Positions 20,606 through 55,497 of a stretch of 64,000 bases of DNA are shown here, one piece after another. The position numbers and the translations under genes are program-made. The DNA comes from Sphingomonas sp. LHG3406-1 (lineage in GTDB: Bacteria; Pseudomonadota; Alphaproteobacteria; Sphingomonadales; Sphingomonadaceae). The stretch's first letter is position 1. Each line of letters begins with the position of its first letter. The stretch spans positions 2,574,001-2,638,000 of the forward strand of contig NZ_CP069128.1 in assembly GCF_029637485.1 (NCBI RefSeq), given 5' to 3'. The notes beneath the pieces are model-generated. The model searched no databases. It saw nothing but the letters and a program-made list of their open reading frames with translations, and was not told the DNA's origin.

Positions 20606-21322
20606 TCAGCGGACCCGCGGGCCGCCGTAGGGGAGCGGCGGCGGGGGGCGTCGGTCGCGGCGGGGGAGCTGGGCCTGGTAGGCGACCCCGCAATGCTGGA
20701 CGCAATAAGGATAGCCGGGATTGGCCTGCTGCCCGCAGAAGTGGAAGTCGGGCTCGCCAGGATGGCCGAGCGGCCACTTGCAGATGCGGTCGTTGAGATC
20801 GAGCAGGCTGGTCTTGTCGGCAATCTCGGGCGCGGGCTTGGCCGGCACCAGGCGGCGCGGCGGAGCGGGCGGGATCGGCGCCTGCTGCTCGCCCGGACCC
20901 TGGCGGATGAATCCGCCGGGACCGATCGAGCGATAGACGAGGGTCGGCTCGCCGGCCTTGCCGGGGACCGGAGTGGCGGAGACCTGGGGCGCGGCAGCCG
21001 GCGCGGCGGGGGCGCGGGGCGCTTCGTCCGGCATCGGCGCTGCGGTCTCCAGGATGGCGGCGATCGGCGCCTTGTCCTTGACCCTGGTCGGGGCCGGGCG
21101 CTCGGCCTTGGGCTCGGCCGAGGCGGCGGGGGCTGCCGAGGCGGCGCTCTTGTCCTCGCCGGCCTTGACCGGGGACGGGCGCGAATCGAGGCCGAGGCGA
21201 TGGGCCTTGCCGATCACCGCGTTGCGGCTGACGCCGCCCAGTTCCTCGGCAATGACGCTCGCCGTCTTGCCTTCGGCCCACATTGCCTTGAGGCGATCGA
21301 TCCGCTCGTCAGTCCAGCTCAT
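20606..21322 (-). CDS. gcrA: GcrA family cell cycle regulator
   Basis: Sigma70-linked activator that in Caulobacter works with CcrM methylation to drive S-phase genes. 238 residues. The N-terminus MSWTDERIDRLKAMWAEGKT and GVSRNAVIGKAHRLGL is the GcrA DNA-binding domain; an Ala/Pro-rich linker follows; the C-terminus has ICKWPLGHPGEPDFHFCG and YPYCVQHC, the family's Cys-rich end. Start at 21322 chosen for AAGAG 6 bases upstream. A CTGACGC-GCGTCAG hairpin overlaps the stop. Confidence 0.93.
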   Translation of the reverse strand: MSWTDERIDRLKAMWAEGKTASVIAEELGGVSRNAVIGKAHRLGLDSRPSPVKAGEDKSAASAAPAASAEPKAERPAPTRVKDKAPIAAILETAAPMPDEAPRAPAAPAAAPQVSATPVPGKAGEPTLVYRSIGPGGFIRQGPGEQQAPIPPAPPRRLVPAKPAPEIADKTSLLDLNDRICKWPLGHPGEPDFHFCGQQANPGYPYCVQHCGVAYQAQLPRRDRRPPPPLPYGGPRVR

Positions 21323-51664: not shown

Positions 51665-53989
51665 TCAGCCCACAGAGACGAAGCTGTCGAGCACCCGCTT
51701 GCGGCCCGAATGCTCGAAGTCGATCTCGAGCTTGTTGCCTTCGATGACGGCGATGGTGCCGTAGCCGAACTTGCCGTGGAAGACGCGCTGGCCGACGGCG
51801 AGGTCGTCGCGGCCCTTGTTGCCGAGGCTGACGGCGGACGCGCGCGCCTCGACGATTCGCTGGGGCGCGGGAGTGAAGGTCTGGGCGGCGCGTCCCCAGC
51901 CCGGGCCGCGGGTGGCGAGCCGGTCGGGGCGCTGGGCGGCGACATGGGCGAAGGGGTCGCCGCGCTCGCTCCACTGCGCCCGCCACAGGCTTTCGCCGCC
52001 GGTCATGGTGGTCTCCTCGTCGACATGCTCCCTGGGCAGTTCGGCGACGAAGCGGCTGGGAATGGACGAGGTCCACTGGCCGTAGATGCGGCGGTTGGCG
52101 GCGTGGACGATGGTCGCCTTCTCGCGCGCCCGGGTGATGGCGACATAGGCGAGCCGGCGTTCCTCCTCGAGACTGGCGGTGCCGCCCTCGTCCAGTGCGC
52201 GCTGCGAGGGAAAGACCCCTTCTTCCCAGCCGGGAAGATAGACGATCGGAAATTCCAGCCCCTTGGCGGCATGGATGGTCATGATGGTGACCTTGTCGCC
52301 GGACTCGTCGGCGTCATTGTCCATGACCAAACTGACATGCTCGAGGAAGGCGGGGAGGCTTTCATATTCCTCCATCGCCCGGGTGAGTTCGGTGAGGTTC
52401 TCAAGCCGGCCCGACGCCTCGGCGGTGCGCTCGGCCTGGAGCATGGCGGTGTAGCCGCTCTCGTCGAGGAGCAGGCGGGCGAGCTCGGCATGGGGCGGCG
52501 GCTCGTGGGGGCTCTTCTGCTGGTCGGCGGCGGCAAGGTGCATCTGCCGCCAGCGGGCGAGGTCGCCGACGAAGCGGCCGAGGCTGCGCCGTGCCTGCGG
52601 GGTCAGCTCGTCCGAATCGAGCATCTGCGCGGCGGCGAGCAGGAGCGGCAGGCCGGCAGCGCGGGCGTAGCGATGGATGTTGGCGATCGCCTTGTCGCCG
52701 AGCCCGCGCTTGGGCGTGTTGACGATCCGCTCGAAGGCGAGGTCGTCCGACGGGCTCTGGACCAGGCGGAGATAGGCGAGGGCGTCGCGGATCTCGGTCC
52801 GCTCGTAGAAGCGGAAGCCGCCGACGATCTGATAGGGCAGGCCGATCGCGATGAAGCGTTCTTCGAACTCGCGGGTCTGGAACTGGGCGCGGACGAGGAT
52901 GGCGGCATCGGAAAGCTTGCCGCCGCGGGCCTGATGGGTTTCGAGCTCCTCGCCCACCCGGCGCGCTTCCTCGGGGCCGTCCCACACGCCGATGACGCGC
53001 ACCTTCTCGCCCGCGTCGCACTCCGTCCACAAGGTCTTGCCGAGGCGGCCCGAATTGTTGGCGATGAGGCCGGAGGCGGCGCCAAGGATGTGCGGGGTGG
53101 AGCGATAGTTCTGCTCGAGCCGGATCACCGCCGCGCCGGCAAAATCGCGCTCGAAGCGCAGGATGTTGGCGACCTCTGCCCCGCGCCAGGAGTAGATGGA
53201 CTGGTCGTCATCGCCCACGCAGCACAGGTTGCGCCGCGGCTCGGCGAGCAGCTTCAGCCACTCGTACTGGACGGCGTTGGTGTCCTGATATTCGTCGACC
53301 AGCAGATATTTGAAGCGGGCGCGGCAGCGCTCCAGCACGTCCTCGTGGGTGCGGAAGATGACCAGCATGTGGAGCAGCAGGTCGCCGAAGTCGCAGGCGT
53401 TCACGGCCCTGAGCCGCGCCTGATACTGGGCATAGAGCTCGGCCCCGCGGCCGTTGGCGAAGGCTTCCGCCTCGCCGGCGTCGAGCATCTGCGGGGTGAG
53501 CCCCTTGTTCTTCCAGCGGTCGATGCAGGAGGCGAGCTGGCGGGCGGGCCAGCGCTTCTCGTCGAGCTCGGCCGCGACGATCAGCTGCTTCAGCAGCCGG
53601 AGCTGGTCGTCGGTGTCGAGGATGGTGAAATTGCTCTGCAGGCCGGCGAGCTCGGCGTGGATGCGGAGCATCTTGGCGGCGATCGAGTGGAAGGTGCCGA
53701 GCCAGGGCATGCCCTCGATCGCGCCGCCACTGATCTTGCTGACCCGCTCGCGCATCTCGCGCGCTGCCTTGTTGGTGAAGGTCACCGCGAGGATCTCGCT
53801 CGGCCAGGCACGGCGCGTGGCGATGAGGTGGGCGAGTCGCGCGGTCAGGGCGGCGGTCTTGCCCGTTCCCGCGCCGGCCAGCACCAGCACCGGTCCTTCG
53901 GTCGTCAGCACGGCTTCGCGCTGGGGCGCGTTCAGGCCGGAGAGATAGGCCGGTTCGGGGGAAATGGCGGCGGATTCGGGCACTTGCAT
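51665..53989 (-). CDS. uvrD: UvrD/PcrA-type DNA helicase
   Basis: 3'-5' SF1 helicase for repair and replication restart. 774 residues. LNAPQREAVLTTEGPVLVL, AGAGTGKTAAL (I), AVTFTNKAAREM, YLLVDEYQDTN (II), DDDQSIYSWRGAE, EQNYRS, TIHAAKGLEF (V) and AYVAITRAREKA (VI). C-terminal Tudor-like segment VFHGKFGYGTIAVIEGNKL. Start MQVPESAAIS. Confidence 0.94.
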   Translation of the reverse strand: MQVPESAAISPEPAYLSGLNAPQREAVLTTEGPVLVLAGAGTGKTAALTARLAHLIATRRAWPSEILAVTFTNKAAREMRERVSKISGGAIEGMPWLGTFHSIAAKMLRIHAELAGLQSNFTILDTDDQLRLLKQLIVAAELDEKRWPARQLASCIDRWKNKGLTPQMLDAGEAEAFANGRGAELYAQYQARLRAVNACDFGDLLLHMLVIFRTHEDVLERCRARFKYLLVDEYQDTNAVQYEWLKLLAEPRRNLCCVGDDDQSIYSWRGAEVANILRFERDFAGAAVIRLEQNYRSTPHILGAASGLIANNSGRLGKTLWTECDAGEKVRVIGVWDGPEEARRVGEELETHQARGGKLSDAAILVRAQFQTREFEERFIAIGLPYQIVGGFRFYERTEIRDALAYLRLVQSPSDDLAFERIVNTPKRGLGDKAIANIHRYARAAGLPLLLAAAQMLDSDELTPQARRSLGRFVGDLARWRQMHLAAADQQKSPHEPPPHAELARLLLDESGYTAMLQAERTAEASGRLENLTELTRAMEEYESLPAFLEHVSLVMDNDADESGDKVTIMTIHAAKGLEFPIVYLPGWEEGVFPSQRALDEGGTASLEEERRLAYVAITRAREKATIVHAANRRIYGQWTSSIPSRFVAELPREHVDEETTMTGGESLWRAQWSERGDPFAHVAAQRPDRLATRGPGWGRAAQTFTPAPQRIVEARASAVSLGNKGRDDLAVGQRVFHGKFGYGTIAVIEGNKLEIDFEHSGRKRVLDSFVSVG

Positions 53990-54066
53990 TGCCCTAGGCC
54001 GGGGAGAACGGAACGGCAACACCGGGCGAAGGAACGGCTGCGCAACGATTGCACCCGATATCCCCG

Positions 54067-54075
54067 TTATCCACA
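54067..54075 (+). promoter_or_regulatory. Perfect DnaA box TTATCCACA
   Basis: Matches the TTATNCACA consensus. It lies between the divergent uvrD start and the RNA-like region, overlapping the candidate -35 box at 54070. Confidence 0.5.
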
Positions 54076-54098
54076 GGCATGATGCTGCCGATTATGCT
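54070..54098 (+). promoter_or_regulatory. Candidate sigma70 promoter of the large RNA
   Basis: TCCACA (4 of 6 to TTGACA), 17 bases, TATGCT. Predicted start near 54105. Confidence 0.45.
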
Positions 54099-54104
54099 TT
54101 GCGC

Positions 54105-54856
54105 GACTCACAAACGGAGTCATCTTGAACAGGTGATCGGGGGGCAACCGGCCCTCTCCCAGGAAGAGGCCCGCAAGGGCTGACGCGACGGGAAAGGGAA
54201 GGAACTTCCGATCTCCGCCGGCAAGGCGATGGAGTGGAATTCGTTTCGAGCTCCAGGGCTTCCCCAGGACGCCTTGGAAGGAAATGCGGAGGATCTCCGG
54301 AGCGAAGCCGGCAAGAGGCGCCGGAAGAGATGCTCGTCTCACCGCCGCAGGCCGGGCCGGCTCGCAAGAGCTGATCAGGGCAGCGCGAAAGACGAATGTC
54401 CCAAGAAGGGCCGCGAACGGACGGACGGTGGCGGATCGTGCCGAGCCTGGCTTGCCAGGGGCTGGTGCGGGAAGCGGGTCCAGGACCGGACCGAGGCTTG
54501 GAAGTCGCTCCCGCAAGGGAGTGGTCGGACAAGCGGAGGCGAGGACCATGACCGTCGGAGCGGAACGGCAGTGAGCGGAAGGCCTTCGGGTCGGAAGCGG
54601 ACAGCCGGGAGGCGCCGGCAGAGCCGGGTGGAGGCGACATGGGGCCGCAAGGTCGCTGGAGCCGAGATCCGGGGAAGAGCCCGGGAGACCGGGCAGCCGA
54701 TCGGGACCGACGCGACGCCTGAGCGGGCACGCGAGGATCGGGATGAAGGAGAGTTTCGCTTTTCGGAGCGGCATTCTCGGACGGAACGAACACCGGCAGA
54801 ACCTGTCTCGGCGCAGTGGGGCTCGGCAGCAATGCCGGGCCCCATTTCTCGTTTGG
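54105..54856 (+). ncRNA. Candidate large structured non-coding RNA, GGA-rich
   Basis: About 750 bases between uvrD and a thioesterase gene. Frames are open on both strands but none reads like a protein. By hand I count about 40 GGA triplets in 54160-54790, several times chance. Short stems with stable loops are frequent: GCCC-GCAA-GGGC (54169), GGAAG-gaa-CTTCC (54197), CGCC-GGCAA-GGCG (54216), GCTC-GCAA-GAGC (54360), CCTGG-CTTG-CCAGG (54446), CTCCC-GCAA-GGGAG (54508), GGCC-TTCG-GGTC (54581), GGCC-GCAA-GGTC (54643). It ends in a 12-bp terminator stem, also GCAA-capped. No RNase P, tmRNA or SRP core motif was found. Function unknown. Confidence 0.6.
54817..54854 (+). terminator. Terminator of the candidate large RNA
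   Basis: TGGGGCTCGGCA-GCAA-TGCCGGGCCCCA (54817-54844), 12 bp with one G-T pair, then TTTCTCGTTT. Works only in the plus direction. Confidence 0.7.
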
Positions 54857-54965: not shown

Positions 54966-55060
54966 CGTCACCCCGGACTTGATCCGAGGTCCATCTTCCT
55001 CTTCTTCATCGATCGCGTCGCGCCAGGCGGTGCGCAAGCCGGGTCAGGTCCGGGGTGGCG
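54966..55060. repeat. Paired palindromic element
   Basis: CGTCACCCCGGACTTGATCC to GGTCAGGTCCGGGGTGGCG; fourth member of the family at 31342. It lies directly before the thioesterase RBS. Confidence 0.75.
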
Positions 55061-55083
55061 AGAACAGGCGAGCGAGGGTCACG

Positions 55084-55497
55084 ATGAGCAGCGACGACGG
55101 GCTGAAGCTGGCGCTCGAGGCCGCCAACGCCATGTCGCCCTTCCACCGCGTGACCGGCTTTGCGGTCGAGGCGGCGGGGCAGGGTGAGGCTGCGCTCTCC
55201 TTCGATGCGAGACCCGAACTCCTCAACCATGCCGGCGCGCTGCATGCGGGCGTGCAGTGCGCGGCGCTGGACACGGCCGCCGGCTATGCCGCCGCGACCA
55301 TCGCCGGGCCGGTGGTCACGCTCCAGTTCAGCACTCAGTTCCTGAGCAGCGCCAGGGGCGAGCGGTTCGAGGCTTCGGCCACGGTAACCAGGGCCGGCAA
55401 GGCGCAGCTCTTCGTCGACGCCCGGCTGTTCGCCTTCCGCGACGGCGAGCGGCGGCTCGTCGCCAGCGCGTCCGCTGTGCTGACCAAGGCGGGATGA
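55084..55497 (+). CDS. PaaI-type hotdog thioesterase
   Basis: 137 residues. Hotdog fold: MSPFHRVTGFAVEAAGQGEA, ELLNHAGALHAGVQCAALDT (the NHAG..H active-site segment), VVTLQFSTQFLSSA, ARLFAFRDGERRLVASASAV. Cleaves an acyl-CoA; substrate unknown. RBS GAGGG. Confidence 0.85.
   Translation: MSSDDGLKLALEAANAMSPFHRVTGFAVEAAGQGEAALSFDARPELLNHAGALHAGVQCAALDTAAGYAAATIAGPVVTLQFSTQFLSSARGERFEASATVTRAGKAQLFVDARLFAFRDGERRLVASASAVLTKAG

Follow-up and report, generated by a model that had tools for sequence, protein, structure and literature searches.

A large structured RNA gene of sphingomonads with a promoter that may be linked to replication or the cell cycle

We analysed a window of 64,000 nucleotides from Sphingomonas sp. 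LHG3406-1. It contains a candidate RNA gene with a body of about 720 nt, accompanied by a DnaA-box pair, a predicted promoter and a terminator (Table 1). Lying on the plus strand between uvrD and a thioesterase gene, it looks like an independent transcription unit.

Table 1. Features at and around the RNA gene, in window coordinates
Feature	Position	Strand	Evidence or remark
GcrA cell-cycle regulator gene, candidate activator, about 33 kb from the RNA gene	20657..21322	-	PF07750
uvrD, divergent neighbour, outside the RNA gene	51665..54022	-	Pfam
Conserved box pair GATATCCCCG-TTATCCACAG; TTATCCACA (presumed DnaA box) at 54067-54075	54057..54076	+	kept in relatives' promoters
Predicted -35 hexamer TTTGCG	54098..54103	+	position kept in relatives
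GACTC, a GANTC (CcrM) site between the promoter hexamers	54105..54109	+	GANTC here in most promoters compared (see text)
Second GANTC	54117..54121	+	
Predicted -10 hexamer CATCTT, N17 after TTTGCG	54121..54126	+	relatives have CATATT, CATAAC, CATTGT etc. in this position
Large structured RNA (predicted transcript, approximate ends)	54133..about 54853	+	folding z, alifold, covariation against tree-preserving nulls
5' domain; helix GTGATCGG/CCGATC, 54133-54140 with 54208-54215	54133..54215	+	94% canonical cells in 66 homologs, 0 double-change pairs
Motif GGCGCCGGAAGAG; GCGCC 54318-54322 pairs with GGCGC 54810-54814	54317..54329	+	100% canonical in 66
Covarying hairpin, stem 54329-54335 with 54394-54400	54329..54400	+	double changes in 5 of 7 pairs
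Motif CCCAAGAAGGGCCGC; GGGCCGC 54408-54414 pairs with GCGACGCCT 54712-54720	54400..54414	+	100% canonical in 66
Variable arm between the strands of the central helix	54415..54711	+	inter-motif distance 48 to 320 nt where both motifs found
3' domain GCGACGCCTGAGC ... CTCGGCGCAG	54712..54814	+	covariance model R2
Intrinsic terminator, 14-bp stem, GCAA loop, then T-rich tail	54815..54846	+	double changes in 6 of 14 pairs
Thioesterase gene, downstream	54979..55497	+	Pfam

Long open frames are present in the GC-rich RNA sequence, and the thioesterase gene lies downstream on the same strand, so that the locus might be a misread coding region or else a 5' leader or attenuator of that gene. However, the frames are not kept: among seven close relatives the open frames shift, gap lengths are mostly not divisible by 3, and the codon phase of substitutions is inconsistent. 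On these grounds we reject a protein-coding reading, and the impression of the first-pass annotation that no frame reads like a protein holds. The thioesterase was matched at one of 41 loci tested, our own, the downstream flanks of those loci being short. As for uvrD, it adjoins the RNA locus in 25/25 loci of the genus and 0/16 loci of other genera, and it is the neighbour in 53 of the 66 full-length homologs described below. Given uvrD within the genus, argG in a second branch (below) and the absence of uvrD elsewhere, the neighbourhood speaks against regulation of a neighbouring gene, and we reject both a thioesterase leader and a fixed partnership with uvrD because the neighbours differ across genera. 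A leader or a misread coding region is, in our estimate, barely credible. We also reject a mobile element, since a plasmid and phage search at the sensitivity of blastn, queried with the RNA of one relative, gave no matches.

Rfam 15 holds models for RNase P, tmRNA, SRP, OLE, GOLLD and ROOL RNAs. A comparison with its covariance models, which the first-pass annotation had proposed for the plus strand, gave no match at gathering score anywhere in the window, and we therefore reject membership in a known Rfam 15 family. Among the matches in the RNA region up to E 5 there was none of the OLE, GOLLD or ROOL kind, and the best, a weak likeness to BjrC68 (RF02353) over the 3' end, scored 22 bits. 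As BjrC68 needs 39 bits for gathering, we reject this identity as well; in 12 relatives it gave no match at E up to 0.5. RNase P RNA, whose core motifs had been looked for and found absent at first reading, lies elsewhere in this genome (C1:569661-570038, 281 bits), which rejects that identity. At a different locus, L056:2521-2684 (minus), we observed a sub-threshold match to the Caulobacter sRNA CC2171 (51 bits vs. a gathering score of 75), which includes a stretch that seems complementary to the 3' end of 16S rRNA. A literature search, covering mainly freely accessible journals, found no description of the RNA. In the parts seen, PMC8632094 covers one sphingomonad, for another motif, and the passages of PMC6970203 on Zymomonas sRNAs do not mention argG or uvrD. 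The family is new to Rfam 15 and apparently undescribed, and it occurs in many sphingomonads.

Within the genus, the RNA is widely conserved. DNA similarity was found in 21 of the 24 other genus genomes and, outside the family but within the order, in 0/16 genomes. R2, a covariance model built on the 3' part, matched 66 of 71 genus genomes, including all 53 of good quality, with one strong match per genome; the score was at least 65 bits in 61 of the 71, while five matches were weak (possibly the terminator alone) and five genomes gave none. Named carriers are Sphingomonas cremea (Sphingomonadaceae) and Sphingomonas quercus. R2 also matched 27 out-of-family genomes at E 0.001 or better, with scores up to 38.4 bits. 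Because an R2 match scoring under about 45 bits can reflect no more than a GC-rich terminator, the R2 tally of 175/249 does not serve as a count of the RNA. A second model, R1, found the core in 12 of 249 family genomes and 5 of 96 genera.

Folding of the own sequence is strand-specific, with z of -4.5 on the plus strand and -0.5 on the minus strand (20 shuffles each). For comparative analysis we used 66 distinct full-length homologs with a mean pairwise identity of 0.61. Three sequences without a recognisable 3' motif (L020, L021, L027) are outside this set, as are diverged bodies that missed the motif rule (L044, L045, L059 and others). Alignments were made with MAFFT, which is not structure-aware, and structures were derived from them; the nulls, 20 alignments evolved along the homologs' own tree with matching substitutions and site rates, were folded identically. 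RNAalifold gave -161.2 for the homologs vs. -101.5±6.4 for these tree-preserving nulls, and pairs with double changes at ≥80% canonical pairing numbered 24 vs. 0-4. Covariation was significant in 9 of the 83 proposed pairs. This result comes from our own test against the nulls and not from R-scape, which the first-pass annotation had suggested. Under a stricter test of all pairs, only 3 of 168,490 pass, all canonical, and the top 90 hold more pairs of those helices, mixed with many non-canonical pairs.

From these alignments the RNA appears to be built as a multi-helix core closed beside the terminator, with a length-variable arm inside the GGGCCGC/GCGACGCCT helix. The best covarying pair of the hairpin next to the GGCGCCGGAAGAG motif is A-U in 24 homologs, U-A in 18, C-G in 14 and G-C in 6. 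In the GGGCCGC/GCGACGCCT helix, the last pair is C-G in 60, U-G in 4, G-C in one (L040) and A-U in one (L124), and the remaining six pairs are invariant. The GCGCC/GGCGC helix varies within the set by one-sided G-C to G-U changes only; L021, from outside it, has GGCACC with GGTGCC, a compensatory change. The terminator lies on the plus strand and is capped by GCAA, as first described, but its stem has 14 bp and not 12. Genus-wide matches and covariation together support the earlier suggestion of a long structured non-coding RNA conserved among relatives, and the locus almost certainly encodes a real structured RNA.

The abundance of GGA invites a functional reading. About 40 GGA triplets had been claimed, and we counted 41 in 54133-54856, above the 30.7±3.5 of dinucleotide shuffles (2/500 reach 41); a count that high occurs in 1 of 700 overlapping 724-nt block and strand counts across the window. 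The density is 5.7 per 100 nt vs. 2.4 in the RNase P RNA of the same genome. Folds of 25 of the 66 RNAs leave the A of GGA unpaired in 60% of cases, vs. 35% overall. Hairpins with a stem of 4 bp or more and a GNRA, UUCG or CUUG loop number 10 (1.1±1.0 under a first-order Markov null, 0/500), which bears out the first count of at least eight such stems. Across the 66 RNAs, CUUCGG occurs 156 times vs. 18 expected, and CGGAAG 203 times vs. 34 expected, or about three per RNA. CGGAAG may serve the RNA as a recurring motif for recognition or in joints.

The GGA excess and the exposure of its A would suit a trans-acting regulatory RNA, a sponge whose GGA joints titrate ribosomes or an RNA-binding protein other than CsrA. 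CsrB/RsmZ-type RNAs have many GGA motifs and many short hairpins, and the sphingomonad RNA resembles them in both respects; it differs in its long-range core, in the lack of an Rfam match and in that CsrA was not found. The search for CsrA (PF02599) gave 0 matches in the own genome, and the same search was positive in 3 of 14 control genomes. This makes a CsrA sponge unlikely, and we set that reading aside; GGA alone does not point to CsrA. A sponge for some other partner has further points against it: the own RNA lacks AGGAGG and has GGAGG four times, and a near-invariant long-range core is not something that a sponge needs. We consider it quite unlikely. That GGA marks ribosome mimicry or protein binding, as had been proposed, is unproven.

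The structured RNA at uvrD appears to be one branch of a larger family. Many family genomes have a match to the terminator of the uvrD-linked RNA only, and these loci led us to a GGA-rich conserved stretch downstream of argG (identified by Pfam), 445-584 nt as cut. We chose 44 such loci by the terminator alone, and it resembles that of the uvrD-linked branch. argG is present in 44/44, DnaA-type boxes in 42 and an inverted box pair in 37; a GANTC lies just downstream of the last box in 40, and GGA is in excess in 43. The 41 sequences used for folding, for which box and GANTC were required, gave an alifold value of -180.8 vs. -85.6±5.2 in 20 tree-preserving nulls, with 37 double-change pairs vs. 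0-6 and significant covariation in 15 of 117 pairs. Compensatory changes beyond phylogenetic expectation, the mark of a structured non-coding RNA, were thus found in both branches, with 20 nulls for each. Rfam gave no match up to E 0.5 in ten argG-branch and related loci, and among the terminator-only loci to which model R1 was applied, not one yielded the core. No alignment is obtained between the bodies of the two branches, so a common descent would rest on their shared ends. In other genera, the same kind of ends flank still other bodies. Genus g36 has tandem promoter-RNA-terminator units with clearly different bodies (L044, L059).

For the family at large, we classified a locus by box, GANTC, GGA excess and terminator together. 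Of the 127 family genomes examined, 84 passed this classifier, from 40 genera (labels assigned by hand); of the controls, 0/300 pieces of the own genome and 0/26 out-of-family terminator matches did. With the addition of 9 argG-branch genomes that the classifier missed and of G117, which is counted via the 66-sequence set, such a locus is present in at least 94 of the 249 genomes sampled from the family, a lower bound because 122 of the 249 are outside the examined set. After all tests, 33 of the 127 were negative. The best explanation of these results is a stand-alone non-coding RNA gene that would represent one branch of a family spread through Sphingomonadaceae.

Upstream of the RNA, the boxes rank among the best-conserved parts of the locus across genera, and TTATCCACA, which we take to be a DnaA box, matches once in the window, with 0.06 expected. 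We collected 85 promoters by resemblance to the box element; an exact TTATCCACA at a fixed upstream place, as in a DnaA-regulated promoter, is present in 74, a count that is partly built in by this selection, which is not so for GANTC. At no more than one mismatch, the promoter pattern is found in 104 of 249 family genomes and its reversed control in 11, some of the matches being other sites; an over-strict pattern yielded 6 loci in a scan of the collection. In sister family f5, GTTATCCCCGTTATCCACAG lies upstream of hemE amid further boxes (L246, L249; hemE of L249 identified by Pfam) and a two-mismatch form occurs in L245, i.e., a 20-mer nearly identical to the box pair of the RNA promoter. 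Its place near hemE among boxes supports TTATCCACA as a DnaA box. The chromosomal origin of f5 is probably marked by these hemE-upstream boxes.

In the own genome, TATCCACAG occurs 9 times vs. 8 for the reversed control and is not over-represented, and the RNA locus has one strict-consensus DnaA box in 400 bp rather than a cluster, so DnaA binding is an assumption. Nor does the locus look like an origin, which would combine a box cluster with hemE nearby: hemE had no match in the window, in 20 sampled stretches or in 9 further loci of the genome. GC skew over 20 sampled stretches of 20 kb gave no position for the origin. Conservation of the boxes could also mean that the DNA is the working part, binding or titrating DnaA close to a promoter, and the RNA a by-product. 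A single strict box at the own locus argues against this, as does the RNA fold, which is under strong selection in either branch, and we regard this reading as very improbable.

The promoter itself lies lower than first thought. The letters of the proposed TCCACA-N17-TATGCT promoter are present, but TCCACA belongs to the conserved DnaA box, and relatives do not keep TATGCT. Read side by side, the relatives' aligned promoters place the conserved hexamers 28 nt further downstream (TTTGCG, CATCTT) and suggest a transcription start near 54133 (GTGATCGGG) instead of the element start at 54105; the stem drawn at 54105-54121 consists of two GANTC sites that precede this predicted start. A generic promoter scan detected neither the TCCACA-TATGCT nor the TTTGCG-CATCTT promoter.

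A GANTC lies between the hexamers in 73 of the 85 promoters (59/68 with the core, 14/17 others) vs. 4.1% of 22-nt background windows, which take in coding DNA. The true background is somewhat above 4.1%, since GANTC is over-represented in intergenic regions, as cited in a passage of PMC7987155. All 73 spacer sites read GA[AC]TC[AG], the reverse complement of YGAKTC. According to passages of the same paper, YGAKTCK is a hypothesised GcrA motif of Caulobacter, with no such preference in Brevundimonas. A GANTC near the start, its YGAKTC form and a GcrA gene in the genome are all present, as in a GcrA/CcrM-regulated promoter. Among the 68 core promoters, 10 lack an exact TTATCCACA and 9 lack GANTC; in 7 of these 9 the first hexamer is of the TTG type, e.g., TTGAAA or TTGGAA (L006, L009, L018, L020, L035, L217, L232). 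In these few, related sequences, a better promoter may have replaced the activator, a possible switch to constitutive expression.

As if an activator were not needed, the TTG-type promoters fit a housekeeping structural or ribozyme-like RNA, made constitutively, for which DnaA-like boxes and GANTC would have no cell-cycle meaning. Its presence in all 53 good-quality genus genomes, in a few by weak matches only, fits such an RNA as well. Plain promoter use, however, does not explain why boxes and GANTC recur before unrelated-looking bodies at different loci, and we think a constitutive housekeeping role somewhat unlikely. On the promoter sequences, we lean slightly towards expression linked to replication or the cell cycle. 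The same slight preference applies to the structured RNA gene and a regulated promoter taken jointly.

How might such a gene work? RNA polymerase would start near 54133 from a weak promoter, GcrA would aid it at the GANTC between the hexamers, which can be methylated, and DnaA on the boxes further upstream would gate transcription. Taken together, a weak promoter, help from GcrA and gating by DnaA would make production of the RNA dependent on replication or the cell cycle. In the last and least certain step, the RNA would act in trans as a ribonucleoprotein scaffold and not as a short base-pairing sRNA, with the near-invariant multi-helix core and the CGGAAG-type purine joints as its binding surfaces. 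This scaffold role is a conjecture that we hold with little confidence. Our most far-reaching proposal is equally tentative: a giant RNA of sphingomonads, 300-720 nt long, that may be gated by replication via DnaA and CcrM methylation around each replication round, with ends, architecture and purine joints under selection, much of the fold rebuilt between genera and loci that vary (uvrD, argG and others).

Several known systems offer comparisons. The sphingomonad RNA is like OLE, GOLLD and ROOL as described in their abstracts, i.e., large, elaborately structured, with its own gene and without an established enzyme activity. These RNAs belong to other bacterial groups, in contrast, and the sphingomonad RNA matches none of them in Rfam at gathering score or up to E 5; the same abstracts do not mention DnaA or GANTC promoter marks. 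Another alphaproteobacterial RNA, EcpR1 of Sinorhizobium, is about 100 nt long. As described in part of PMC4414408, it acts on the cell cycle, a point of likeness, but it is a trans-sRNA and far smaller than the sphingomonad RNA. CcnA of Caulobacter is likewise an alphaproteobacterial ncRNA tied to replication and cell-cycle regulators; compared by description in passages of PMC8959179, it is found at the origin of replication, with CtrA as its presumed activator, whereas the sphingomonad RNA has DnaA and GANTC marks.

The RNA described here adds to the large structured RNAs whose function is unsettled. To our knowledge, only a small number of large, structured RNAs encoded by genes of their own have been described in bacteria, and work on them has opened up biology not known before. 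The sphingomonad RNA occurs widely in a family that matters in the environment and includes culturable members, and its promoter predicts expression coupled to replication or the cell cycle by way of DnaA and GANTC methylation. The RNA would give the study of the sphingomonad cell cycle a concrete molecule to work with. If the proposal is true, a replication-gated giant RNA would be a class of cell-cycle effector made of RNA.
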